This document shows positions 86-14,666 of a stretch of 58,325 bases of DNA, in pieces. Under the pieces are notes generated by a model that made no database searches, had not been told where the DNA came from, and saw only the letters and a program-made list of their open reading frames with translations. The stretch spans positions 1 to 58,325 of the forward strand of contig NZ_JAUNXR010000003.1 of the NCBI RefSeq assembly GCF_030539665.1, written 5' to 3'. The stretch's first letter is position 1; the number at the start of each line of letters is the position of its first letter. The position numbers were made by a program, and so were the translations under genes. The DNA is from Methanobrevibacter sp. (lineage in GTDB: Archaea; Methanobacteriota; Methanobacteria; Methanobacteriales; Methanobacteriaceae).

Positions 86-1120
86 ATGAGTTATAAAATT
101 TCTGTAATCCTACCAATCTTTAATGGTGAAAAAACCATTAATCGAGCTATTGAATCTGTAATTAACCAAACAATTGGTTTTGAAAATATAGAGCTAATAT
201 TGTATGACGATGCTTCAACAGACAGATCCAGAGAAATAATTCTAGATTATGCAAAAGAGTATGGAAACATTGTCCCCATTTTATCAGATGATAATAGCGG
301 ATACCCTGGAAGAGGGAGAAATGAAGGAATAAAAAGATCATCAGCAGACTTTGTAATGTTTATGGACAATGATGATGAGTATAGGTCGGATTTTTGTGAA
401 AAACTCTACGATGCTGCTGTAAAATATGATGCGGATGTTGTATTGTGCGATTACATTGAGGAAGATTATGTATCATCATATGTTTGTAAGACAAGCTACA
501 ATGGAGAAATAGTGGAAAATGACAGCACAGTAATTTTTGACCATCATGTGAAGAATCTTAATAACATGATGCTTTGGAACAATCTCTTTAGAAAATCCAT
601 AATTGAAAAAAACAAAATCAGATTCCCTGAAGACAAATTAGCTGAGGACATATATTTTTCATATCTCAATTACATGCATGCAAATAAGGTGGTTTACCTG
701 AAATCCTATATTGGTTATGTCAGACATATTCAGGGAACTTCACTGTCCAGAACCCTTTCATTTAAGAAAATAGAAGAAAGTTTGACTGTACTGTCTGAAA
801 TTGTCGATGAATTTAACTCCAACAATTATAAACCAGATTATAATGTCCTGTTTAATGCAAACATTAGATTAACATTAAAGTACATATACATGTCCCAAGA
901 TTTTAAAGACAAAAAGGAAATTAAAAAGCTTTTAAAACAGCTGTATGACTTTGAAAGGAAAATCGACTTTGAATATGATTATGCTCCAATCTTTAAAATT
1001 GCCAATTTCCTGTTAACACACAGGATGTGCAATCTTCTGATATTGTACCTTAAGACATTGAGAGCCTTTGCCAAATCAAGGTTAATAAGAAATATCTACA
1101 GGTCAACTTTGGGCAATTAG
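86..1120 (+). CDS. Family 2 glycosyltransferase
   Basis: A GT-A fold inverting glycosyltransferase of 344 aa that would transfer a sugar from a nucleotide donor at the cytoplasmic face during surface glycan assembly. The N-terminus has the family start (SVILPIFNG), the first acidic motif (YDDAS) and the DxD-type metal site (MDNDDE, about residue 92). An acidic stretch near EDIYFS could hold the catalytic base. The C-terminal 100 residues are basic and helical, with no clear membrane span. A GGAGATG ribosome site precedes the ATG. A 136-bp gap separates it from the LicD operon, so it may be transcribed separately. Donor and acceptor cannot be predicted. Confidence 0.85.
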   Translation: MSYKISVILPIFNGEKTINRAIESVINQTIGFENIELILYDDASTDRSREIILDYAKEYGNIVPILSDDNSGYPGRGRNEGIKRSSADFVMFMDNDDEYRSDFCEKLYDAAVKYDADVVLCDYIEEDYVSSYVCKTSYNGEIVENDSTVIFDHHVKNLNNMMLWNNLFRKSIIEKNKIRFPEDKLAEDIYFSYLNYMHANKVVYLKSYIGYVRHIQGTSLSRTLSFKKIEESLTVLSEIVDEFNSNNYKPDYNVLFNANIRLTLKYIYMSQDFKDKKEIKKLLKQLYDFERKIDFEYDYAPIFKIANFLLTHRMCNLLILYLKTLRAFAKSRLIRNIYRSTLGN

Positions 1121-1256: not shown

Positions 1257-2084
1257 ATGGATAATAAACTTGACCAACAGACACTGAAACATTTGAAGGA
1301 AACAGAGTTAATGATTCTAAAGGATGTTATCGATGTTTGCGACAAGCATGACATTGACTATTACTTGTTTTTTGGAACTCTTATTGGTGCTGTTCGTCAT
1401 GAGGGATTTATTCCGTGGGACGATGACATTGACATAATGATGTTTAGGGAAGATTATGAAAAATTCCTGAAAATCTTCAAAAATGAAAAGAGCGACAAAT
1501 ACGAAGTGTTGGAGGGTCGCTGTCAGGACGATTACTTTTTGCTTTTCGCCAAAATATCCTTGAAGGATACCAAATTTGAAGAATACTGGGCGAAACAGGT
1601 TTCCTTTAATCTTGGAATATTCATAGACATCTTCATTTTGGACAATGTTCCAGACAATAAGGTTAAAAGATTCCTCTTCAAGAAATATTGCTTCATGATG
1701 GACAAGCTATTGACAATGGCTACAATCAGGTTGCCTGAGCATTATCCTCCTCACATAAGGATTCCTGCAAATGCAATGCACGGCATTCTAAACAGGATAG
1801 GTCTTGACACCGAATATTTCAAGAAAAGAACCGAAAGGCTTGCTAGAAAATATGAGAATCAGGATACTGAATACGTTTGCGATTTGACTGAAGTAAAGCA
1901 ATTCCATTTTAGAAGAAGTGATTTGAAGCCTGCAAAAATCATGAAATTTGAAGATATTGAAGCTAAGGTACCTAACAATTATGATTATATTTTAAAACTG
2001 TTGTATGGAGATTATATGAAAATACCTCCTGAAGAGGAACGCACATGTCATGTTCTGGATGGTATTGAATTTGGAGAGTATTGA
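1257..2084 (+). CDS. LicD family phosphotransferase (copy 1)
   Basis: A LicD-family protein of 275 aa. Characterised LicD enzymes move phosphocholine from CDP-choline onto a cell-surface sugar. The diagnostic nucleotidyltransferase-like core is clear: [20 protein letters not shown] near residues 39-58, with the DDDID acidic cluster for metal and nucleotide binding. The frame is open upstream from a TTG at 1239, but the ATG at 1257 sits 7 bases after GGAG and is the better start. It opens a four-gene operon and is followed after 1 bp by the aminotransferase. A second LicD closes the operon, so two acceptor positions or two donors are possible. The group transferred is probably not choline, because no choline uptake or kinase gene is present here. 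Confidence 0.85.
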
Positions 2085-2085
2085 A

Positions 2086-3159
2086 ATGCTTAATTTTACT
2101 ATTGGTCCTGTAATGTCTAACGATAAGGTAAGGGAAATCGGATCTGAACAGGTTCCCTATTTTAGAACTCCTGAATTTTCCGAACTTATGCTTGAAAGTG
2201 AAGAATTGATGAAAAAACTTTTGAACGCTCCTGAAAATTCCAGGTGTGCATTTATTACAGGCTCTGGAACAGCATCTATGGAAGCTGTTGTAATGAATGT
2301 TTTTACAAGTGACGACAAGATTCTCATCGTTAATGGAGGCGGATTCGGCGAAAGGTTCGTTGAGCTCTGCAAATTGCATGAGATTCCCTACGAATCAATT
2401 GATTTGGAAGTGAACAAGGACATTGCAGAGGACATTTTGAAACAGTATGAAAACAAGGGATTTACTGGATTTCTTGTAAATATTCATGAAACCTCCACAG
2501 GAGTGCACTACAATCTTGATCTTATTAGCGAATTCTGCAGGAAAAACAATCTGTTTTTGGTTGTCGATGCAATCAGCTCATTTCTGGCCGATGAGGTTGA
2601 CATGAGCAAAAACGACATCGATGTGGTAATCACAGGGTCACAGAAGGCATTGGCATGTCCTCCAGGAGTTTCCATCATTGCATTGTCTCCAAAAGCTGTT
2701 GAAAGGGTTGAGGAAAACACATGCAAGTCAATGTATCTTGATTTGAAGAATGCATTGAAAAACGGAGAAAGGGGCCAGACACCATTCACCCCAGCTGTCG
2801 CTATTTTAATCCAAATCAACGCCCGTTTAAATGAAATCTTTGACAATGGAGGGGTTGGAAGCGAAATTGAAAAGGTTGCTGAAATTGCAGACAACTTTAG
2901 AAGTCAGATTAAGGATTTGCCGTTTGAAATTACTTCAGAGTCCCTTTCAAATGCCGTTACTCCCCTACATCCAACAACAGCATCTGCCGAGGATATTTTC
3001 CACATCCTGAAGGATGAATACGGCATATGGATCTGTCCAAATGGTGGGGAGTTTAAAGATACCCTGTTTAGAGTGGGCCACATTGGGGATTTGACAATTG
3101 AAGACAACAACAGGCTCATTGAAGCCCTGAAGGATATGCAGAAAAGAAATTTAATTTAG
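2086..3159 (+). CDS. Class V aminotransferase (AEP/alanine-glyoxylate type)
   Basis: A PLP-dependent fold-type I, class V aminotransferase of 357 aa, similar to alanine-glyoxylate and 2-aminoethylphosphonate transaminases. The N-terminus FTIGPVM and the small-residue stretch [11 protein letters not shown] (cofactor phosphate binding) are typical. The Schiff-base lysine is in [13 protein letters not shown], and the acid contacting the cofactor ring is in VVDAISSF. The open frame extends to 2050, but GGAGAG at 2073-2078 points to the ATG at 2086, just after the LicD stop. Its place between LicD and a cytidylyltransferase suggests it makes the amine of an amino-alcohol head group. The substrate is an inference; AEP is possible, but no PEP mutase is in the window. 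Confidence 0.8.
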
Positions 3160-3168
3160 GTTGGAAAA

Positions 3169-4497
3169 ATGAAGAAAGTTATAACCTATGGTACATATGA
3201 TTTATTCCATTATGGCCATCAAAGACTATTGGAACGTGCAAAAGAGCTTGGAGACTACCTTATTGTAGGGGTTACAGCTGATGACTTTGATAAGACAAGG
3301 GGAAAAATCAATGTACACCAACCATTGATTGAAAGGATAGAATCAGTTCGTTCAACAGGCCTTGCAGACGAAATCATAGTTGAGGAATATGAAGGCCAGA
3401 AAATCGACGACATCAAAAGAAAGGAAGTGGACATATTTACAGTCGGATCAGACTGGATAGGAGAGTTTGACTACCTGAATGAATTCTGTGACGTCGTATA
3501 CCTGGACAGGACCGAAGGGATCTCAAGCTCAGACATACGTTCAGAACACAGAAGCATAAAACTGGGCCTTATAGGTAAAAGCAGAATCCTTACAAAGTTC
3601 TACAACGAAAGCAAACATGTAAACGGAATAACCGTAGACTACGTCTGTACCGAAGACCCAAAGGAAATCAACAAGCTCAAGGACGAGGATGTCGTAATAA
3701 CCGAAGACTATGATGTACTTCTGGAGCATTGTGATGCCGTATACATAGTATCACCACCAATCAGACATTATGAACAAATAAAAAAGGCCTTGAATCTTGG
3801 AAAACATGTCCTTTGTGAAGCCCCAATAGCATTAAGGGAAGATGAATTTGACGAGCTTATTGAACTTGCAGAAAAAAACGGCCTGATGCTGTTTGAATCA
3901 ATAAAGACCGCATACTCAACAGCATTCCACAGGCTTGTATTGCTTGCAAAAAGCGGAAGGATAGGAGACATAATCTCAATAGATGCGACCTGTACCAGCC
4001 TAAGGGACATAAACACCGAAGCGCTGGAAAAGGAATGGAGCAGTATTGAAAAATGGGGTCCTACAGCACTCCTGCCAATATTTGAAATATTCGGAACAGA
4101 ATACAAGAACAAGCATGCATCATCACTGATACTAAAGGACAATTTCGACATATTTACAAAAATAGATTTCGAATACGAATCATCAGTGGCATCAATAAAG
4201 GTCGGTAACAGCGTAAAATCCGAAGGTGAACTTATAATATCCGGAAGAAACGGATACATCTATGTTCCTGCACCATGGTGGAAAACAGACTACTTCGAAT
4301 TGAGATATGAAAACCAGGAAGAGAACAAGAAGTACTTCTACCAGCTTGAAGGTGAAGGAATAAGATACGAGCTTGTAGCATTCATCAGGTCAATACAGAT
4401 GAACAAGAACAATTCATACATAAAGACAAAGGTCTCAAAGGCCATTGCAAAAACCGTCGGCGACTGCATCTACGGAGACGTAAACAAACTATCCTGA
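3169..4497 (+). CDS. Cytidylyltransferase fused to Gfo/Idh/MocA-like domain
   Basis: A two-domain protein of 442 aa. Residues 1-125 are a TagD/GCT-like cytidylyltransferase with the nucleotide motif HYGH (14-17) and the second signature RTEGISSS (114-121); such enzymes form CDP-alcohols from phospho-alcohols and CTP. From about residue 130 a Rossmann domain of the Gfo/Idh/MocA oxidoreductase family begins (KLGLIGKSR). That domain looks atypical: the usual EKP motif reads EAP (HVLCEAPIA), and the segment that normally carries the D-x3-H catalytic pair reads ALLPIFEIFG without histidine. It may use other residues or only bind a ligand. It lies 9 bp after the aminotransferase and 9 bp before the second LicD. 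Glycerol-3-phosphate is the likeliest substrate of the first domain, but this is unproven. Confidence 0.8.
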   Translation: MKKVITYGTYDLFHYGHQRLLERAKELGDYLIVGVTADDFDKTRGKINVHQPLIERIESVRSTGLADEIIVEEYEGQKIDDIKRKEVDIFTVGSDWIGEFDYLNEFCDVVYLDRTEGISSSDIRSEHRSIKLGLIGKSRILTKFYNESKHVNGITVDYVCTEDPKEINKLKDEDVVITEDYDVLLEHCDAVYIVSPPIRHYEQIKKALNLGKHVLCEAPIALREDEFDELIELAEKNGLMLFESIKTAYSTAFHRLVLLAKSGRIGDIISIDATCTSLRDINTEALEKEWSSIEKWGPTALLPIFEIFGTEYKNKHASSLILKDNFDIFTKIDFEYESSVASIKVGNSVKSEGELIISGRNGYIYVPAPWWKTDYFELRYENQEENKKYFYQLEGEGIRYELVAFIRSIQMNKNNSYIKTKVSKAIAKTVGDCIYGDVNKLS

Positions 4498-4506
4498 GGG
4501 CTTGAC

Positions 4507-5370
4507 ATGACAATAATGGAAAAGGAAACTTTCTATGAATACCCTCCAGAAACACTTCAGAAAATAAAGGACCTGGAACTGATGATTTTAAAGGAATTCA
4601 TCAGAATCTGTGAGGAAAACCACATAACCTACTTTTTAGATGGTGGAACAGCCCTTGGAGCCATCAGACATGAAGGATTCATTCCATGGGATGACGACAT
4701 TGACGTAATCATGCTAAGGGAAGACTACGAAAAGCTTCAGGAAGTCATGAAAGACTACAAAAGCGACAGGTTCGAGTTCCTAAGCAAGAATACAAAGGAA
4801 TACTATTGTCGTAACTTCTCAGAGCTGAACCTTAAGGGAACATATACTGAAAGGTTCTACAACAGCGAAAACACCGACTTTGAGCTTGGAATAAGCATAG
4901 ACATATTCGTTCTGGACAACATTCCTGACAGCAAGCTAGCAAGAAAGCTCTTCAACCTCAGATACAAGCTATTCAGGCTACTGCTTATCTCATATGAAAT
5001 ATCATTCAACGACATGTACGTTTCCGAAACCAAACAGAAGATCGGAAGGACAATCAGGTCCATCTACAGGCTGCTGAACATTGACAATGACTTTGTAAAA
5101 AGACAAGGGGACAAGCTAATTGAAAGCACCATGAAAAAAGAAACAAGAGACGTTGCAAATCTAAGTACCCCATATTCCACATTGAACATTGTGCCAAGAG
5201 ATATTTTCAAGCCTGCAAAAAAAGTAAAGTTCGAAGATTTGACCGTAAACGTTCCGAAGGACTACGACACTTATCTGACAGGAATCTACGGAGATTACAT
5301 GACCCTGCCGCCAGTTGAGGATAGGGTAAACCACAGCTTTGCAAAAATCGATTTTGGAGAATACAAATAG
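4507..5370 (+). CDS. LicD family phosphotransferase (copy 2)
   Basis: A second LicD-family protein, 287 aa, with the same core (GTALGAIRHEGF then PWDDDIDVIM, near residues 48-68) and the same overall plan as the first copy, including the FxxGxSIDIFVLDNIPD segment and the C-terminal GDYMxxPPxExR signature. By eye the two copies are clearly paralogous but well diverged, so they probably act on different acceptors. The ATG at 4507 follows GAGGG; an internal ATG five bases later in the same region is possible but less well spaced. It ends the operon and is followed by an inverted repeat. Confidence 0.85.
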   Translation: MTIMEKETFYEYPPETLQKIKDLELMILKEFIRICEENHITYFLDGGTALGAIRHEGFIPWDDDIDVIMLREDYEKLQEVMKDYKSDRFEFLSKNTKEYYCRNFSELNLKGTYTERFYNSENTDFELGISIDIFVLDNIPDSKLARKLFNLRYKLFRLLLISYEISFNDMYVSETKQKIGRTIRSIYRLLNIDNDFVKRQGDKLIESTMKKETRDVANLSTPYSTLNIVPRDIFKPAKKVKFEDLTVNVPKDYDTYLTGIYGDYMTLPPVEDRVNHSFAKIDFGEYK

Positions 5371-5452: not shown

Positions 5453-6331
5453 TTAGGGAGTGGTTTGTTGCTCTTCCCTTAATTTTATTATTTCTTTAAT
5501 TGTATCATTATCAATACCAACTTCCCTCAAAGCTGACAAAAATCCCTCTCTTTCCTCTTTTATTCCTTCTTCTCTCCCTTCTATTTTTCCTTCTATTTTT
5601 CCTTCATCTATTCCTTCCTGTTTCCATTCATCAAATATTGGATTCCCCATTTTAGCCAACCTCCTTATTTCATTGCATTTTTTACTGTCTTTTACCAGTT
5701 TTTCACATAGCCTAATTAAAAGATATTTAATTTGACCTTTTTCCATTTCTTCCTGTTTATTGTTTGTTTCTATCCTGTTTGCAGTTATCATTGATTGCTT
5801 TATCAATCCAGCACATTCTTCAACCGCTTTTGTGGAATATGGAATCAGTATCAGGTCTTGCTTATCCTGATTTGTAAGATGCCTGTTGTCTTTTATTTTA
5901 TTGTTTATGCTATTTAACAATTCTTTTCCGTCAAGATTCAGTGAGCTTTTCTGGAAGACCTTATGATAGATATTTGAACGGAGCTTATTGCAATGATCTT
6001 CATTTTTCACAGGGAGAATTGTGATTACATATGTGTATACCTCCCCATCGTATTTTGCCGTAGTGAGACTTGCATATTCATGCAATACCTCCTGCTTTGC
6101 TTTGTTTGGATATGTGCTTTGAAATTCGATATTTAGAATCACTCCTTCCTCCGTTAGAATGATACAGTCCATGCTATAACGTGAATCTATCTTCAATACA
6201 TTTTCTGTGGGCAGGAACTCCTTAAAGGTATATGGAATCCCAAACCTATCTAGAAGACCTTGAGGATTAAGATCAACCATAAACTTGAAGGCACTGTCAT
6301 GAATCTTTAAGCCATTTAATTTTTCAGCCAT
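5453..6331 (-). CDS. Rpn family PD-(D/E)XK nuclease (copy 1)
   Basis: A 292-aa member of the Rpn/transposase-like PD-(D/E)XK nuclease family, whose studied members are metal-dependent endonucleases that promote recombination. The active site is visible: D55 in RYSMDC, followed by E69-x-Q71 in NIEFQS, the ExQ variant typical of the family. The C-terminal third ends in EG-rich short repeats (EGKIEGKIEGREEG), also typical. Start at ATG 6331, five bases after GGTGG; an in-frame GTG at 6340 is worse. Over the first 80 residues it is about 85-90% identical by eye to the copy at 9306-10172, which has the opposite orientation. It may move or be maintained as a selfish element; no terminal repeats were found. 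Confidence 0.75.
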   Translation of the reverse strand: MAEKLNGLKIHDSAFKFMVDLNPQGLLDRFGIPYTFKEFLPTENVLKIDSRYSMDCIILTEEGVILNIEFQSTYPNKAKQEVLHEYASLTTAKYDGEVYTYVITILPVKNEDHCNKLRSNIYHKVFQKSSLNLDGKELLNSINNKIKDNRHLTNQDKQDLILIPYSTKAVEECAGLIKQSMITANRIETNNKQEEMEKGQIKYLLIRLCEKLVKDSKKCNEIRRLAKMGNPIFDEWKQEGIDEGKIEGKIEGREEGIKEEREGFLSALREVGIDNDTIKEIIKLREEQQTTP

Positions 6332-6365
6332 AAAAACCACCGTTAGCCTTTAATTTAATATTAAT

Positions 6366-6546: not shown

Positions 6547-7596
6547 CTATTTCTCATTTAAAAGCTCGATAAGGGTTTTCCTATAGTTTTCCAGCTTGTC
6601 GGAATACAATGGCCCGTCGTAGATATATATTTCAGAACCGTCCTTAAAGCTTAAGGCAACTGTGGAAATGATTGTACCAACCACTTTCGGCCTGATTCCA
6701 AGTAGCTTCAGAAATTCTATCGGGAACAGGTTGCTTATGACCTCCACTTCAGGGAAAATTGCCTTGTAGTCCTTTGATTCCCTTGGATGGGGCTTGACAA
6801 ATACATTCCTTGAGGAAAACTCGGCAATCATGTTTCTGTAGATGTCCATTTCCTCATCTTCAGTGATGAAATTGGCCTCACTCAAAGGCTGGGTCAATAT
6901 GAGAACGCTATCATCACCTATCTTGGATATTGCATCGTAGTCTATGTTGAAAAGTGACAGAATCTTTCTTTTCTCTTCATCTGACTTTTCTGCCCATAGC
7001 TTCTCGATGTCTATGACCTCTATCTTCTCGTTGATCAGCTCATCATCATGCTCGTTTGTAAGATAGACCTTTTTGATGTTTTTATGTGACCCCAAAGTCT
7101 CCTCTATTCTCAGATAGTACATTCCACAAATATGAAGAATTTTATCGATTATTGGATTGATCTTATGGGTTTCCATGGCTTTACGAGAGTAGTTTAAAAA
7201 TCCGTCCTCGATTATGCTTGCATTTTTAAGCTCGTAGAAAGGAAACGAGAATGCGGTACTCGCATTTCCGAAAATCTCATATTCACAATTGTACCTGTGC
7301 CTATTATAAAACAAGAACAGTCTTAAGGAGATATAGCCATAGAAATACCTCAGATAGCCTGCAATGTTTTCAAAGACTCCTCCTATTGAATCCAATGGAG
7401 CCATTAAAGGACCTTTTATGAAATTTACCTTAGGCAGCTGAAAATGGTTGAAGTTTTTAGCAATCTCCCTTGGAAACAGGTATGTGAAGATGAAGATGTC
7501 ATCATCATCATATCCGCATATCAGAAGATACAGGAAAAGATTGTATAAAGTGGCCGTAAGACATATCCTTTTTGTTTTCTTAGAAATAATAAACAC
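6547..7596 (-). CDS. GT52-like sialyltransferase family protein
   Basis: A 349-aa protein resembling bacterial sialyltransferase and polysialyltransferase families (GT52/GT38/GT80). These share a D/E-D/E-G motif holding the catalytic base, an HP motif and an S-S/T motif that contact the CMP donor. All three can be placed here: IIEDGFLNY (about residue 130), VKPHPRE (about 270) and TIISTVALS (about 315). The N-terminal KRICLTATLYNLFLYLLI matches the family start rather than a true membrane span. The start is awkward: GTG at 7596 lies directly after AGGAGA, and an ATT three codons later would be better spaced. A nonulosonic acid operon lies 2.6 kb away, so the donor may be CMP-pseudaminic acid (inference). 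Confidence 0.6.
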   Translation of the reverse strand: MFIISKKTKRICLTATLYNLFLYLLICGYDDDDIFIFTYLFPREIAKNFNHFQLPKVNFIKGPLMAPLDSIGGVFENIAGYLRYFYGYISLRLFLFYNRHRYNCEYEIFGNASTAFSFPFYELKNASIIEDGFLNYSRKAMETHKINPIIDKILHICGMYYLRIEETLGSHKNIKKVYLTNEHDDELINEKIEVIDIEKLWAEKSDEEKRKILSLFNIDYDAISKIGDDSVLILTQPLSEANFITEDEEMDIYRNMIAEFSSRNVFVKPHPRESKDYKAIFPEVEVISNLFPIEFLKLLGIRPKVVGTIISTVALSFKDGSEIYIYDGPLYSDKLENYRKTLIELLNEK

Positions 7597-9305: not shown

Positions 9306-10172
9306 ATGAATGGTAAGTTAAATGGTTTGAAGATTCACGATAGTGCCTTCAAGTTCATGATAGATCTTGACCCTCAAGGTCTTCTGGACAGGTTTGGAAT
9401 TCCATACACATTCAAGGAGTTTCTAGCTACTGAAAACGTGCTGAAAATAGATTCACGCTACAGCATGGATTGCCTTATTCTGACAGAGGAAGGGATAATC
9501 ATAAATCTTGAGTTTCAAAGCTCATATCCAAACAAAGCAAAGCAGGAAGTTTTGCGTGTGTATGCAAGCCTTACGACAGTCAAATATGATGAAGACGTAT
9601 TCACATATGTACTTACGATCCACCCTGTTAAAAATGAAGAGAAGTGCAATAAGCTTCGTTCAAACATTTATCACAGGGTTTTCCAGAAAAGCTCCTTGAA
9701 TCTTGATGGAAAAGAATTGTTAAATAGCATAAACAACAAAATAAAAAACAACGGACATCTTACAAATAAGGACAAGCAAGACCTGATATTGATTCCTTAT
9801 TCCACTAGAGATGTTAAAGAATGTGCAGGATTAATAAAACAAGGAATGATTACTACCAATAAGATAAAAACAGATAGCAAACAGGAAGAAATTGAAAAAG
9901 GCCAAATGAAATATCTTCTGATGAGGCTCTGCGAAAGGTTGGTAAAGGACAATGAAAAATGCAAAGAAATAAAGGAGTTGGCTAAAATGGGAAACCCAAT
10001 ATTTGACGAATGGAAACAGGAAGGACTAGAAGAAGGCTTAGAAGAAGGAAGAGAAGAAGGAATAGAACAAGCAATAAGAAAATTAGCAACAAAACTGGAA
10101 AAACTAGGAATTGACAAGGAAATGTTGAAAAAGGCTCTTGAATTAACCGAAGAGCAAACCAATACAAATTAA
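9306..10172 (+). CDS. Rpn family PD-(D/E)XK nuclease (copy 2)
   Basis: The 288-aa paralogue of the gene at 5453-6331, on the opposite strand. It keeps the catalytic pattern (SRYSMDC, then LEFQSS) and the conserved LNGLKIHDSAFKFM opening. The two copies diverge mainly at the C-terminus, where this one has LEEGLEEGREEG repeats followed by a different helical tail (KLATKLEKLGIDKEML). Such tail exchange is common in Rpn proteins. Together the copies bracket the sialyltransferase-like and wzx genes, an arrangement that could invert or delete that segment by homologous recombination (inference). It converges on pseI with a 16-bp gap. Confidence 0.75.
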   Translation: MNGKLNGLKIHDSAFKFMIDLDPQGLLDRFGIPYTFKEFLATENVLKIDSRYSMDCLILTEEGIIINLEFQSSYPNKAKQEVLRVYASLTTVKYDEDVFTYVLTIHPVKNEEKCNKLRSNIYHRVFQKSSLNLDGKELLNSINNKIKNNGHLTNKDKQDLILIPYSTRDVKECAGLIKQGMITTNKIKTDSKQEEIEKGQMKYLLMRLCERLVKDNEKCKEIKELAKMGNPIFDEWKQEGLEEGLEEGREEGIEQAIRKLATKLEKLGIDKEMLKKALELTEEQTNTN

Positions 10173-10188
10173 AAATAAAATTAAAAAA

Positions 10189-11235
10189 TCAATTGATGAA
10201 CTCCAACTTGAAAGGAGTTCCTCTTTTTATATCTTCATTTACTTCTTTTCCCAGAATTTCGTTTAGGTATTTTGGATGAAGGCCGAACCCAGGCCTGATT
10301 GAACGAACGTTCTTTTCTGTTACTGTTTCTCCTTTTTTAATGTCTTCAACTGCAAAAAGAGATCTTGAAAATTCACGATTTATCTTTGCCTTTTCAGTCA
10401 GTTCGAAGCTAACTTTTCCCAATGCCTTTTCGATGTTTCTAATTGAATCTACCATTTCCTTGAATTCTTCAGGCTCCATTGAGAATTCGGCATCAGGACC
10501 TCCCATATTCCTATCCAAAATAAAGTGCTTTTCTATAATTTCAGCCCCTAATGCAACTGAGGCTATTGCCACTTCGCTGCCCAATGTGTGGTCAGACAAT
10601 CCAACCTCAACACCAAATTCATCCATTATTGCAGGAATCGTATTGAGGTTCATATCTTCAAAAGGGGCAGGATATGATGAGGTGCACTTAAGGATAGCTA
10701 TCTGGTCGTTTCCTGCATCGCGACATGTTTTTATGGCAAGCTCAATGTCTTCCCTTGAGGCTATTCCTGTGGAGATTATTATCGGCTTCCCCTTGCTTGC
10801 AACATATTCTATTAGTGGAATGTCAGTTATTTCAAAAGATGCAATTTTATAGGCTCCCATACCCATGTCTTCCATAAAGTCAACTGAAGTCTTATCGAAG
10901 GGTGAAGAAAATACAATCAAGCCTAAATTTTCTGCTATGTTTTTAAGTTCCTCTTGCCATTCCCAAGGCATGAATGCATCCTCGTATAGGTTGTACAATA
11001 CCTGGCCGTCCCAGATGGTTCCCTGCCTAATCTGGAAATACTCATTGTCGCAATCGATTGTTATTGTATCTGGAGTATAGGTCTGGAACTTGACAGCATC
11101 CGCTCCAGCATCAGCCATTGCCCTGATTGTATCTGCAGCAATGTTGAAATCATTCAGATGATTTGCAGAAAGCTCGGCAATTATAAAAACAGGATTACCT
11201 TCACCAATTCCTCTTCCATCAATTTGAAAACTCAT
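10189..11235 (-). CDS. pseI: Pseudaminic acid synthase
   Basis: Condenses 2,4-diacetamido-2,4,6-trideoxy-L-altrose with phosphoenolpyruvate to give pseudaminic acid. The 348-aa protein has an N-terminal NeuB-type TIM barrel (IAELSANHLNDF, VKFQTY, KIASFEITDIPL, SDHTLG, EKHF) and a C-terminal SAF/antifreeze-like domain from about residue 285. The segment YNLYEDAFMPWEW matches the LYxxAxTPWEW pattern of PseI rather than the NeuB sequence, which separates it from N-acetylneuraminate synthase. ATG at 11235 has TAGGAG upstream and follows the previous stop by one base; the longer open frame begins inside the preceding gene. Last gene of the pse operon. Confidence 0.88.
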   Translation of the reverse strand: MSFQIDGRGIGEGNPVFIIAELSANHLNDFNIAADTIRAMADAGADAVKFQTYTPDTITIDCDNEYFQIRQGTIWDGQVLYNLYEDAFMPWEWQEELKNIAENLGLIVFSSPFDKTSVDFMEDMGMGAYKIASFEITDIPLIEYVASKGKPIIISTGIASREDIELAIKTCRDAGNDQIAILKCTSSYPAPFEDMNLNTIPAIMDEFGVEVGLSDHTLGSEVAIASVALGAEIIEKHFILDRNMGGPDAEFSMEPEEFKEMVDSIRNIEKALGKVSFELTEKAKINREFSRSLFAVEDIKKGETVTEKNVRSIRPGFGLHPKYLNEILGKEVNEDIKRGTPFKLEFIN

Positions 11236-11236
11236 A

Positions 11237-12670
11237 CTATAAACTCCTAACATATTTCAATGCATCAAAACCCTTTACATTTTCAGTTCCTTCAAATTCA
11301 AATCCGCAACGTTCAAACAACGAAATTGAAGCCATGTTTTCCTTTTTTATATAAGCAACCATATTATCCAATCCAGCAAATCTAGAGGCCTCCAAAAGCA
11401 AAAACGGAGAGATGTTAAGTCCCCTGTATTTCTTATTCAGACTTATGCTGACTATTGCACCATCATCTTCCAAATCAAAGCGAACCTGACCTATCAGATC
11501 ATCCCCATATTCTGCCACGAGAAAAATAGTGTCTTCATCATCAATTATGTTTTCGAACCATTTCCTATGGTTTTCAAGAGGAATCTTTTCTGAGTTGAAT
11601 GAAGCATTTCTAACCTCGTCGTCATTTGCTATTTCGAATATCCTATAGCAGTCACCAACATCTGCTTTCCTTAGCTGTAAATTCTTTTTGTAGTAAGCTG
11701 ACAGGATTCTTTTAACCAATCTCCTAGCACCCTTACCATCAACGGCAGAATTTCCTTTTTCCCTTTTGGATTGCCTCATGCCATAATCATTCAATATATT
11801 CAATTTGCCTTTAATATTTTCAAGCAAATCATCGTCATCCCAGAAGCCTACAAACTCTATGAAACCCTGCTCCTGCCAGTTTTCAATGTTGTTTATCTGG
11901 TTATCGACTATTCCAATAGCTATTGTTGGAACACCAACCCTTGCAAGCTCATACAATGTCTGACCGCTTGATGAAATGGCCAGATCGCAAGATAGCATTA
12001 CGTCAAGCATTTCTGACGCATCGAGATTAAACAGAATTTCAGTGTTTGAGTCGGCAGCTTCCCTAATTTTTTCAACATTTTTAAAGCTGTTTCCAACAAT
12101 GACCTTCTTTTTCAAGTCCGAATCAAGCAATTCCAATATTTCGGGAGTCAGATTTCTGAAATCGTCTCCCCCCATAGTTATAAGAACTGTTTCAACTTCC
12201 CTGTTGATTTCAGAATTTTCAAATTCCTCAAATGGCTTTCTCAAGAGTATGAATTCGCTTCCAAGAAGGTCTTCCCTTCCCTCAATATCGGAATATCCAA
12301 TTCTGGAAGCAAGGATTGTTCCGTTTAGAAGAATGCCTTCCGGATACTCCAGACGGTTGTTGTCATCCAAATAGACACCTAATGAAACTTCGTCGGCTAT
12401 CCTATCATAAAATACCTTGTCTGCCAGATATGAATCGATTATGACTATATCATCTTCATCCAACATGTCAAATAGCCTGTCCTGATTGGCTATCCAGTCA
12501 AAATTTAAAAAATCGAAGTCTGTGATGAAGCCATCCACTGACTCGTCACCATTGACAATAAACATTGGAGATATCCCAAATTCCTTAAGGGAACTGTGGA
12601 TTGAACTGCATCTTGCAATGTGTCCAAATCCCCTGTTCTTGCCGCCTTCAGTTAATATTACAACATTCAT
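11237..12670 (-). CDS. PseG-PseH fusion: UDP-sugar hydrolase plus N-acetyltransferase
   Basis: A bifunctional 477-aa protein. Residues 1 to about 310 are a PseG-like GT-B fold hydrolase (EGGKNRGFGHIARC, with the catalytic-type GxGHxxR pattern; TMGGDD; AISSSGQTLYELA) that removes UDP from the bacillosamine-like intermediate. From about residue 330 a GNAT acetyltransferase follows (LQLRKADVGDCYRIFEIAND, then LNKKYRGLNISPFLL), corresponding to PseH, which N-acetylates C4. The two chemical steps are consecutive (acetylation first), so fusion makes sense; similar fusions occur in some bacteria. ATG at 12670 is one base after the pseF stop. No strong ribosome site is seen, so translation is probably coupled. 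Confidence 0.85.
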   Translation of the reverse strand: MNVVILTEGGKNRGFGHIARCSSIHSSLKEFGISPMFIVNGDESVDGFITDFDFLNFDWIANQDRLFDMLDEDDIVIIDSYLADKVFYDRIADEVSLGVYLDDNNRLEYPEGILLNGTILASRIGYSDIEGREDLLGSEFILLRKPFEEFENSEINREVETVLITMGGDDFRNLTPEILELLDSDLKKKVIVGNSFKNVEKIREAADSNTEILFNLDASEMLDVMLSCDLAISSSGQTLYELARVGVPTIAIGIVDNQINNIENWQEQGFIEFVGFWDDDDLLENIKGKLNILNDYGMRQSKREKGNSAVDGKGARRLVKRILSAYYKKNLQLRKADVGDCYRIFEIANDDEVRNASFNSEKIPLENHRKWFENIIDDEDTIFLVAEYGDDLIGQVRFDLEDDGAIVSISLNKKYRGLNISPFLLLEASRFAGLDNMVAYIKKENMASISLFERCGFEFEGTENVKGFDALKYVRSL

Positions 12671-12671
12671 T

Positions 12672-13505
12672 CTAATCAATATGTTTTTCAAGAAATTCTT
12701 TGGCCCTGTCCAAGTCCTGCCTGTCGCAAAGACTTATGACCTCTTCCAGTTCTTCATTCAGACTGTTGCAGACCTTTTTCTGAGCTATTTCGCTGTTGAT
12801 GTCCCTAAGATAAGGCTTCTCATCAAATAGGTTCAAGACGTCCTCCAAAAGGAAATAATTATCCGGGCAATATAGATTGTCATAGATTGTGCAAAGCAAG
12901 GCGTAGTCCTGTGGAGTGTCAAGGGTTATCCTTATGTCTGAATTGTCCTCATCAGATTGGATTCTGTTGATTTTGAAGTCATCCGGATGGGTCTTGTAAA
13001 TAAATGGAGTAACATGTTCTTTTTCAAATTTTTCAGACGCTTCCTCATATGCCCTCTTCAAAACATCGAAGTTTATAACTTCCGCATCGATTCCTCTTGG
13101 AAACGATTCAATAAGAGCATTAGAAGTATAGTCAGCTCCCAAATCCAAATGGCTTTTGACAATATCATCAATTACCGTATAGTCAGCACAGGGACAATCG
13201 CTGGTTATCCTTACAATGACATCCAAGTCATTTTCCACTGCAGCACCGTAAAACCTCTCAAGTACATTGGGAAGGCTCCCCCTATAATAAGGCACCTTTT
13301 CCATTCTGGCCACTTCAACTATCTCTGAGTCCTCATCCTCAGTGGTAGTAGCAACGATTACCTCATCAATCATTTCAGACCTTTTGACACGCCTGATTAC
13401 CTGCTGCAATACGCAGATGTCGCTATCGTAAGGCAAAGGCTTTAGAACCTTTTTCGGAAGTCTTGATGATGAACTTCTTGCCTGTATTATTGCACCAATC
13501 TTCAT
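12672..13505 (-). CDS. pseF: Pseudaminic acid cytidylyltransferase, SpsF type
   Basis: A 277-aa nucleotidyltransferase that should activate pseudaminic acid with CTP to CMP-pseudaminic acid. The start IGAIIQARSSSSRLPKKVL is the nucleotide-binding loop of the SpsF/CMP-KDO synthetase superfamily, and RITSDCPCAD supplies the metal-binding acid. It is of the SpsF subgroup (COG1861 type), longer than the Helicobacter/Campylobacter PseF, with a C-terminal extension of about 50 residues. The ATG follows the pseC stop with no gap (TAG|ATG). The role is assigned mainly from operon context, because SpsF-type enzymes serve several acidic sugars. Confidence 0.78.
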   Translation of the reverse strand: MKIGAIIQARSSSSRLPKKVLKPLPYDSDICVLQQVIRRVKRSEMIDEVIVATTTEDEDSEIVEVARMEKVPYYRGSLPNVLERFYGAAVENDLDVIVRITSDCPCADYTVIDDIVKSHLDLGADYTSNALIESFPRGIDAEVINFDVLKRAYEEASEKFEKEHVTPFIYKTHPDDFKINRIQSDEDNSDIRITLDTPQDYALLCTIYDNLYCPDNYFLLEDVLNLFDEKPYLRDINSEIAQKKVCNSLNEELEEVISLCDRQDLDRAKEFLEKHID

Positions 13506-14666
13506 CTAATCAAACTCGGAAATTACTTTATAAAGCTTCTCTTGAACGAATTCAAGGTCATCGTCTGTCAGGGTAGGATACATAGGAATGCTTAGCTCGC
13601 GAAGATAGAATTCCTCGTCAACAGGACAGCTGTCTTGAGGATACCCCAATTCCCGATAGTATGGTTGCCTGTAAACAGGAATGTAATGAATCTGAACACC
13701 AATTCCCTCTTCCCTTAATCTGGAAAATATCTCCCTTTTATTTTTGAGATACTTGTCCTTGAGAAGAATTGGATATAAATGATAGGCTGACTCTGCATTT
13801 GGAGTCTCTTCAATCACATCAAAGTATGGGTTGTCCTCGAACATCCCATCATACTTTTTAGCTATTTCCCTTCTTGAATTGACAAAGGAATCCAGTTTCT
13901 TGAGCTGGGAGATTCCTAAAGCGCATTGAATGTCGGTTATACGATAGTTGTATCCCAAATGCTGCATTTCATAATACCAGTCACCATCAGACTCGTTGAC
14001 CAGATTCTCCTTAGTAATACCATGGGATCTGAATAGCTGAAGCCTGTTGTAGTATTCCTCATCGTTTGTGACAATTATTCCTCCCTCACCAGTTGTAATA
14101 TGCTTGACTGGGTGGAATGAAAACATTGCCATTTCAGAATACTCCAATGAACCTATAGGTTTCCCATCGTACTTTGCCCCAAGAGCATGTGCAGCATCCT
14201 CAATTAGCTTAATGTCATTTTCTTCAGCAATCTCGGCAAAAGCCTTCATGTCACATGGATTTCCACTATAGTGAACAGGAGCTATGAATTTGGTCTTGTC
14301 AGTAATCTTATCTGCAACCTTCAAAGGATCCAGATTACCTGTTTCAGCCTGCACATCACCAAATACGGGTTTTGCACCTAGATACAATGCAGCATTTGAT
14401 GTTGCAACAAAAGTGTTTGGGGAAGTTATCATTTCATCCCCAGGATTTAAGCCTAAAGCAAAATAGGCACCATGCAATGCAGAAGTTCCTGAATTGAAAG
14501 CTACAGCATATTTGGCACCGCAATATTTAGCTATTCCCTCTTCAAACTCATTAATCTTAGGTCCCTGTGTGATAAAATCTGCATGGAGAACCTCTACAAC
14601 GGAATCAATGTCATCCTGATCCATTGTCTGCTTCCCATAAGGTAGAAATTTAGAAATAGAAATCAC
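13506..14666 (-). CDS. pseC: UDP-4-amino-4,6-dideoxy-AltNAc aminotransferase
   Basis: A DegT/DnrJ/EryC1-family PLP aminotransferase of up to 386 aa that aminates the 4-keto sugar made by PseB. Motifs seen: FNSGTSALHGAYFALGL (cofactor phosphate), EDAAHALGA, and the lysine in SFHPVKHITTGEGG that forms the Schiff base; the opening LPYGKQ...DIDSVVEVL is that of PseC. The start is unusual. The frame opens with a GTG immediately after the pseB TAG, but the perfect AGGTGAT ribosome site overlaps that GTG. A conventional start at correct spacing is absent; an ATT (14657) sits there instead. Either reinitiation at GTG or a rare AUU start is implied. Confidence 0.87.
   Translation of the reverse strand: MISISKFLPYGKQTMDQDDIDSVVEVLHADFITQGPKINEFEEGIAKYCGAKYAVAFNSGTSALHGAYFALGLNPGDEMITSPNTFVATSNAALYLGAKPVFGDVQAETGNLDPLKVADKITDKTKFIAPVHYSGNPCDMKAFAEIAEENDIKLIEDAAHALGAKYDGKPIGSLEYSEMAMFSFHPVKHITTGEGGIIVTNDEEYYNRLQLFRSHGITKENLVNESDGDWYYEMQHLGYNYRITDIQCALGISQLKKLDSFVNSRREIAKKYDGMFEDNPYFDVIEETPNAESAYHLYPILLKDKYLKNKREIFSRLREEGIGVQIHYIPVYRQPYYRELGYPQDSCPVDEEFYLRELSIPMYPTLTDDDLEFVQEKLYKVISEFD

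Follow-up and report, generated by a model that had tools for sequence, protein, structure and literature searches.

RESULTS

A LicD locus with a two-domain fusion and an aminotransferase

The window, that is, the whole stretch of DNA that was analysed, comprises 58,325 nucleotides of Methanobrevibacter sp. (contig NZ_JAUNXR010000003.1, assembly GCF_030539665.1), an archaeal genome whose nearest named relatives are Methanobrevibacter. An open reading frame (ORF) at 3169-4497 on the + strand encodes a protein of 442 aa, hereafter the window fusion, and lies among the following genes and features:

86..1120, + strand: glycosyltransferase family 2 (PF00535, E 1.9e-31), likely of the same surface-glycan locus
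1257..2084, + strand: LicD-family phosphotransferase (PF04991, E 1.9e-46)
2086..3159, + strand: class V PLP aminotransferase (Aminotran_5), the partner enzyme, directly upstream of the fusion
3169..3546, + strand: TagD-like cytidylyltransferase domain, residues 1-126 (Pfam CTP_transf_like; PDB 2b7l/1coz matches)
3208..3219, + strand: HYGH (HxGH) motif, residues 14-17; H14, G16 and H17 invariant in alignment A1
3508..3531, + strand: RTEGISSS motif, residues 114-121; R114, T115, G117, S119 and S120 invariant in A1
3553..4494, + strand: Gfo/Idh-fold domain, residues 129-442, predicted non-working oxidoreductase (Pfam GFO_IDH_MocA; AF2 model; structural neighbours)
3817..3825, + strand: EAP replacing EKP, residues 217-219; K in 36/145 non-redundant fusions, absent from the window
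3991..3993, + strand: Cys275; the EKP type has F here, and the ESP/EAP branch has switched to C (at >=95 percent)
4051..4065, + strand: K295-T299 replacing the E-x3-Y pair of EKP relatives (alignment); E/Y in 36/36 EKP-type sequences
4276..4284, + strand: WWK, residues 370-372, in the C-terminal sheet; all three subfamilies retain W370 and W371
4507..5370, + strand: second LicD-family phosphotransferase (PF04991, E 4.6e-47)

One LicD gene stands on each side of the aminotransferase-fusion pair, in keeping with the LicD part of a Lic1 pathway. The adjoining PLP enzyme, which does not figure in the preliminary description of this DNA, is our main clue. Its best NCBIfam match was PhnW-AepZ, at 161.5 bits and below the cut-off of 360.8, and the solved relative 3f0h matched it over its whole length (E 6.6e-149). 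The window's genome, which is 95 percent complete, gave no match to GpsA models, to PEP mutase (PF13714; control positive in 11 of 14 genomes) or to choline kinase (PF01633; control positive in only 5 of 14). Thus, sn-glycerol 3-phosphate from GpsA, 2-aminoethylphosphonate (AEP) and LicA-type phosphocholine are not obvious alternatives in this genome, and a phosphocholine reading was dropped on the choline kinase result.

Elsewhere in the window, a 484-aa ORF (11237-12691, - strand) joins a PseG-like half (NCBIfam 129.7 bits, below the cut-off of 153.6) to a GNAT/PseH-like half, within an archaeal cluster of the pseudaminic/sialic-acid type that also holds NeuB (10189-11253), a CTP_transf_3 protein (12672-13505) and a DegT aminotransferase (13506-14666). 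The archaeal ORF at 6547-7596 (- strand) matched glycosyltransferase family 52 and alpha-2,8-polysialyltransferase (PF07388, E 2.7e-16). The ORFs at 5453-6340 (- strand, 295 aa) and 9306-10172 (+ strand, 288 aa), which are similar paralogs, bracket part of the glycan locus; they gave no Pfam match at 1e-5, and presumably resemble Rpn/PD-(D/E)XK transposase-type proteins.

An intact cytidylyltransferase domain and a reductase-type domain lacking the reductase residues

The N-terminal domain was recognized as CTP_transf_like (Pfam, residues 5-125, E 3.7e-18), and residues 1-126 matched the PDB glycerol-3-phosphate cytidylyltransferases 2b7l and 1coz (E 1e-34 and 6e-33). Its score against the TagD/GCT equivalog TIGR01518 was 104.3 bits, below the cut-off of 165.4. 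As the preliminary description had stated, its HxGH and RTEGISSS motifs are intact. Residues 130-242 matched GFO_IDH_MocA (PF01408, E 1.4e-17; 64.9 bits against a cut-off of 24), and the AF2 model of the Gfo/Idh domain reached a pLDDT of 91.0 and a pTM of 0.73. In fold comparison, residues 129-442 gave Z 33.9 with 2o48 and 33.6 with KijD10 (3rc1), and the Gfo/Idh chains listed all exceeded Z 28 over about 300 residues, the two-domain fold being shared. Among the 60 PDB matches listed, no solved chain spanned both domains of the fusion.

The first alignment contained the window fusion and 79 of the 80 best loci (L057 gave no full ORF and was left out). In alignment A1, the 77 rows besides the window shared 56-71 percent identity with it across the fusion, and both domains were strongly conserved. 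At the EKP site, none of the 80 sequences had a lysine (S in 67, A in 8, P in 2, and T, M and L in 1 each). Together with the strong conservation of both domains, this indicated that EAP reflects neither chance nor a sequencing error, and the earlier claim that EAP stands in place of EKP was upheld. Relatives with EKP were first met in other genomes of the Methanobrevibacter family, and carried GxGRIA, TPH, CEKP and an E-x3-Y pair. Aligned with these complete-site relatives, the window fusion has neither the EKP lysine nor a D-x3-H or E/D-x3-Y pair. The preliminary description, which had reported D-x3-H as missing, was right that the acid/base pair is absent (K295/T299), but the pair of the relatives is E-x3-Y, not D-x3-H.

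The wider comparison used 145 non-redundant fusions (219 counted with copies, minus near-copies at 97 percent). Their sources were the 80 loci closest to the query, genomes of the window's phylum (151) and of the phylum to which L016 (Faecalibacterium) belongs (398), a single order with 189 genomes, and a plasmid. They are not a census, and 28 of the 36 EKP sequences come from one order, that holding Anaerovibrio lipolyticus, which makes the sample uneven. The EKP-site motif was ESP in 82, EKP in 36, DPP in 10, EAP in 8, DSP in 3, EPP in 2, and ELP, EMP, EYP and ETP in 1 each. Accordingly counted, 109 fusions are lysine-less, although one of them, L216 (EYP), which has a long branch and an unusual composition, may be an outlier of the EKP type. 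The EKP type had E295/Y299 in every sequence and the G-x-x-G-x-G residues in 35 of 36, the latter being retained in 22 of the 109 lysine-less sequences.

Positions fixed in the EKP type and not in the ESP/EAP branch included the cofactor loop (138-140 and 196-197), K218, glycines 290-291 and E295/Y299, and residues newly fixed in the ESP/EAP branch included C275, W296 and P298. Identity within the ESP/EAP branch was 44 percent in the Rossmann half and 60 percent in the C-terminal half, as against 57 and 55 percent in the EKP type. The DPP/DSP branch has lost the Rossmann glycines too. This is the pattern that one expects if cofactor binding has been relaxed and ligand binding is still under selection. 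Judged by their residues, EKP-type fusions look like live reductase-cytidylyltransferases, and the lysine-less Gfo/Idh domain is predicted not to be a working oxidoreductase.

The preliminary description had offered two roles for this domain, a different chemistry or a substrate-binding partner. We favor the latter because the dinucleotide and catalytic positions are relaxed and conservation of the C-terminal face exceeds that in the EKP relatives; new redox chemistry is less favored. It would imply that the Gfo/Idh half has kept an oxidoreductase activity, with its catalytic residues moved to other positions (e.g., C275, K350 or K372), converting CDP-glycerol to CDP-dihydroxyacetone for amination by the PLP enzyme. 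Consistent with this, C275, W296, K350, W370, W371, K372 and Y375 were invariant in the first 80 sequences, the glycine pattern is kept in part of the lysine-less type, as given above, and the GpsA neighbors of a few fusions (see below) would supply glycerol 3-phosphate. However, the dinucleotide loop is mostly lost, the EKP and E-x3-Y residues are missing, PLP pairing persists in the DPP/DSP branch despite its loss of the Rossmann glycines, and K350 and K372, being frequent in the EKP type as well, did not arise as replacements upon the loss. We therefore regard a relocated oxidoreductase as unlikely.

The lysine-less type is mostly paired with a PLP enzyme

Gene contexts were compared by using ORFs called mechanically (at least 90 aa, longest first), short loci narrowing the view of the neighbors. 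The PLP, GDPD and GNAT profiles were built from the loci under study, the PLP ones from two PLP neighbor clusters of the first loci. A PLP gene was found within four ORFs on either side of 98 of the 109 lysine-less fusions, the window among them, versus 1 of the 36 EKP-type fusions (L209, at -4). It stood at -1 in 74 of the 109, and the 72 same-strand pairs of this kind had a median gap of 4 bp, with 69 of 72 within 50 bp. The slot was occupied by two unrelated families, class V only in 70 cases, HisC-like only in 25 and both in 3. The other 11 lysine-less fusions had no PLP neighbor in view; some are near contig ends, which does not apply to L074, L035, L017, L077 and L169. L035 has an HMGL-like gene in place of the PLP gene, and a second gene that by eye reads like a ThDP enzyme.

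The neighbors of the EKP type were of another kind. Glyphos_transf (CDP-glycerol glycerophosphotransferase) was their commonest Pfam family (12 of 90, versus 4 of 79 lysine-less neighbors, the latter from 36 loci drawn at random out of the 87 lysine-less ones that exceed 9 kb), and GDPD was present within four ORFs of 18 of the 36 EKP-type fusions versus 0 of 109 lysine-less ones. Thus, the context of the EKP type points to CDP-glycerol. LicD occurred within the same distance of 71 of the 109 lysine-less and 8 of the 36 EKP-type fusions. Acetyltransf_1 (GNAT, amine-modifying) was matched by 6 of the 79 lysine-less neighbors, whereas the 25 families most frequent in the 90 EKP neighbors, a list extending to families with 1 member, included no acetyltransferase. 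One genome (G157) carries both types, one fusion with a class V PLP gene (L051) and the other with Glyphos_transf (L161). The preliminary description would have been weakened by homologues with EKP; such relatives do exist, but as a separate group in this other gene context.

Several further neighbors were noticed. A protein of about 750-880 aa (L159:5149-7674 and equivalents) lies within four ORFs of 29 of the 36 EKP-type fusions, at -1 in 21; it is mostly without a Pfam match, and in one case weakly Glyphos_transf. A stand-alone Gfo protein with EKP, kin of the fused domain, directly follows an EKP-type fusion and two LicD genes (L157:7394-8380). In L112 (6228-7175) and L116, a gene of the ornithine cyclodeaminase/mu-crystallin family sits between the class V PLP gene and the fusion.

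The Gfo-domain tree, for which two stand-alone Gfo proteins served as an imperfect outgroup, showed the EKP type as a basal grade and the lysine-less type as a single nested group (support 91). In the full-length tree, the split between the two types needs one change. The loss of lysine is a single event, so the PLP link is one evolutionary observation, whatever the sequence count. A Fisher value for the PLP association is thus not independent evidence, and the independent-pairs test of lysine loss against PLP presence found one pair and no significance, a single pair giving it no power. A stronger argument came from the PLP families themselves. Among fusions with one PLP type in view (71 class V, one EKP row included, and 25 HisC-like), the family was swapped 17 times by parsimony, with at least 9 swaps forced by well-supported branches, and the pairing was kept. 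Such repeated swaps argue for a common pathway of PLP enzyme and fusion.

These data bear on a simpler reading, in which the fusion just makes CDP-glycerol and the PLP enzyme has an unrelated task within the glycan locus. The closest solved relative among the 60 matches listed is TagD, and aminotransferases are often found in polysaccharide loci. Yet, the tight operon spacing, the unequal PLP counts in the two types, the repeated family swaps and the missing GpsA match in the window's genome all speak against it, and we consider it distinctly improbable.

We give a slim chance to CDP-ethanolamine, or a methylated relative, as the product. The PLP enzyme would yield phosphoethanolamine, by phosphoserine decarboxylation in the HisC/CobD-like case, and LicD would add a phosphocholine-like group. 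The frequency of LicD near the lysine-less type fits this idea, HisC-like partners also score against threonine-phosphate decarboxylase CobD, and a methyltransferase (cluster 8) was near 13 of the 109 lysine-less versus 0 of the 36 EKP-type fusions with a profile made from the loci under study. However, the HisC-like partner tested scored 232.9 bits against HisC and 137.6 against CobD, the class V partner belongs to an aminotransferase family and not to a decarboxylase family, and the cytidylyltransferase is TagD-type. Moreover, Pfam methyltransferases were equally rare near both types (2 of 79 lysine-less and 2 of 90 EKP neighbors); the enrichment was not upheld and was not used as support. 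Finally, an AEP pathway (PntC-like), in which the class V enzyme would be an AEP transaminase and the fusion would activate AEP, could draw on PhnW-AepZ as the best NCBIfam match of the partner and on the PF01467 domains that activate phosphonates in known pathways (PMC6697681, partial text), but it was dropped as very improbable because the window's genome has no PEP mutase match, and the PhnW-AepZ score is far below its cut-off and HisC-like enzymes can take the place of the class V enzyme.

GpsA adjoins 6 of the 109 lysine-less fusions, which suggests that glycerol phosphate may also serve there; one GpsA-type neighbor that was scanned matched PF01210/PF07479. GpsA-type, NAD-dependent glycerol-3-phosphate dehydrogenases directly adjoin DPP/DSP fusions in Methanobacteriaceae (L114:6969-8000, L113, L115, L122 and others). 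Archaea usually make sn-glycerol 1-phosphate. Those of the 6 fusions that were listed belong to the DPP/DSP branch, where the presence of GpsA speaks against a purely amino-polyol interpretation.

The fusion is common in gut and rumen genomes

A protein search of GTDB genomes with the window fusion returned at least 592 stretches, at least 576 of which encode relatives. The best 80 loci belonged to Methanobrevibacter, Lachnospiraceae, Oscillospiraceae, Bacteroidales, Elusimicrobiaceae, Treponema and others. Matches, fragments and lone domains included, occurred in 43 of the 151 genomes of the window's phylum. In a Bacteroidota sample, 1 of 395 genomes matched at E 1e-60, namely the genome used as entry point, and the family is patchy across Bacteroidota as a whole. 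Plasmid pRUMAL01 of Ruminococcus albus 7 has LicD, class V aminotransferase, fusion and LicD in the same order as the window, its fusion being annotated only as 'adenylyltransferase/cytidyltransferase family protein'; the accessions of this pair are WP_013483592.1 for the aminotransferase and WP_013483593.1 for the fusion. With the terms used, our search of the open-access literature found no paper describing the fusion. The fusion is common, not rare; calling it unusual, as was done at first, was too strong, also in view of the known reductase-cytidylyltransferase fusions Acs1/Bcs1 (PMC4873967, PMC10918830, partial texts).

DISCUSSION

We propose, with confidence that is about evenly balanced, that the window fusion is half of a two-gene unit making a CDP-activated amino alcohol for LicD, and that its reductase half has been kept as a binding domain. 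In this scenario, an ancestral CDP-glycerol synthase would have lost its reductase activity as a transaminase took over the three-carbon keto-phosphate. The EKP type would still make CDP-glycerol from a ketone of the dihydroxyacetone phosphate (DHAP) type, CTP and NAD(P)H, in analogy to the Haemophilus CDP-ribitol synthase (PMC4873967, PMC10918830, partial texts). In the lysine-less type, the upstream PLP enzyme would aminate a three-carbon keto- or aldehyde-phosphate, the likeliest amination being that of DHAP to serinol phosphate and the second that of glyceraldehyde phosphate to aminopropanediol phosphate. The TagD-like half would then move CMP from CTP, giving a CDP-amino-polyol (CDP-serinol is our best guess), and the flanking LicD proteins would transfer the phospho-amino-polyol to a surface glycan. 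The order of the first two steps could be reversed, with amination taking place on CDP-dihydroxyacetone. As for the lysine-less Gfo/Idh half, it would descend from a working reductase of the same carbonyl, with its cofactor and catalytic residues lost, and may have been retained for binding substrate or product, possibly also for docking of the partner.

Some observations count against this explanation. The 22 lysine-less fusions with G-x-x-G-x-G may still bind a cofactor, and 11 of the 109 have no PLP neighbor in view. Besides, the class V partner is most like PhnW/AepZ, whose natural substrate is a phosphono-aldehyde, whereas DHAP is the substrate that we infer. More tentatively, and with somewhat less than even confidence, we extend the proposal to a widespread, undescribed CDP-amino-polyol pathway, in which the former reductase would no longer do redox chemistry but would present the keto- or amino-polyol to either of two unrelated PLP enzymes that can replace each other. 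The carbonyl once reduced would now be aminated, and the dead reductase would persist as a binding module common to both.

LicD-type decorations shape how hosts and phages perceive microbes, and those known in bacteria are mostly choline, glycerol or ribitol phosphates. If our proposal is true, an amino-polyol is to be added to them. The unit is conserved in hundreds of gut and rumen genomes, including those of methanogens, Lachnospiraceae, Bacteroidales and the cultured R. albus 7. Collectively, these data suggest a widespread, undescribed route to amino-alcohol phosphates on microbial surface sugars. They also provide a natural case wherein a domain appears to lose its chemistry as a neighboring gene takes over the same carbonyl, live and dead forms being both extant.

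Comparison with known systems

The TagD/GCT proteins (2b7l, 1coz) share the whole N-terminal domain with the window fusion, HxGH and RTEGIS motifs included, but they are single-domain proteins, whereas the window fusion stays under the TIGR01518 cut-off and has a second domain. Regarding the fold of residues 129-442, it is shared with the group of KijD10 and dimeric dihydrodiol dehydrogenase (3rc1, 2o48). The EKP relatives keep K and Y at what we presume to be the K102 and Y186 sites, which are mutated in the KijD10 entries; the window has neither.

The domains of Haemophilus influenzae Acs1/Bcs1 are from other families, IspD-type and SDR-type. Acs1/Bcs1 is a bifunctional reductase and cytidylyltransferase, the CDP-ribitol synthase (PMC4873967, PMC10918830, partial texts), and it too has a cytidylyltransferase and a reductase-type domain in one chain, providing a CDP-polyol for glycan phosphotransferases. 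A fused cytidylyltransferase with an apparently active reductase was seen in the EKP-type relatives alone, which would work like Acs1/Bcs1. In contrast, the window protein has the fusion and the reductase-type domain without the catalytic residues, and an aminotransferase adjoins it.

In the Campylobacter jejuni capsule, Cj1437 transaminates DHAP to serinol phosphate (PMC12096443, partial text). Our proposal has in common with it that a PLP enzyme turns a triose phosphate into an amino-polyol phosphate by transamination, for use in a surface polysaccharide. In that system, however, as far as the partial text goes, an amidoligase couples the amine to glucuronic acid, without CDP activation or LicD transfer. 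Lastly, in the CDP-6-D-glucitol pathway of HS5.18/HS5.17, a keto-sugar phosphate is activated with CTP and its carbonyl is then processed on the CDP form (PMC10918830, partial text). There, the proteins are separate and of other families, and the carbonyl is reduced, not aminated, yet the pathway offers a precedent for handling a carbonyl after activation.
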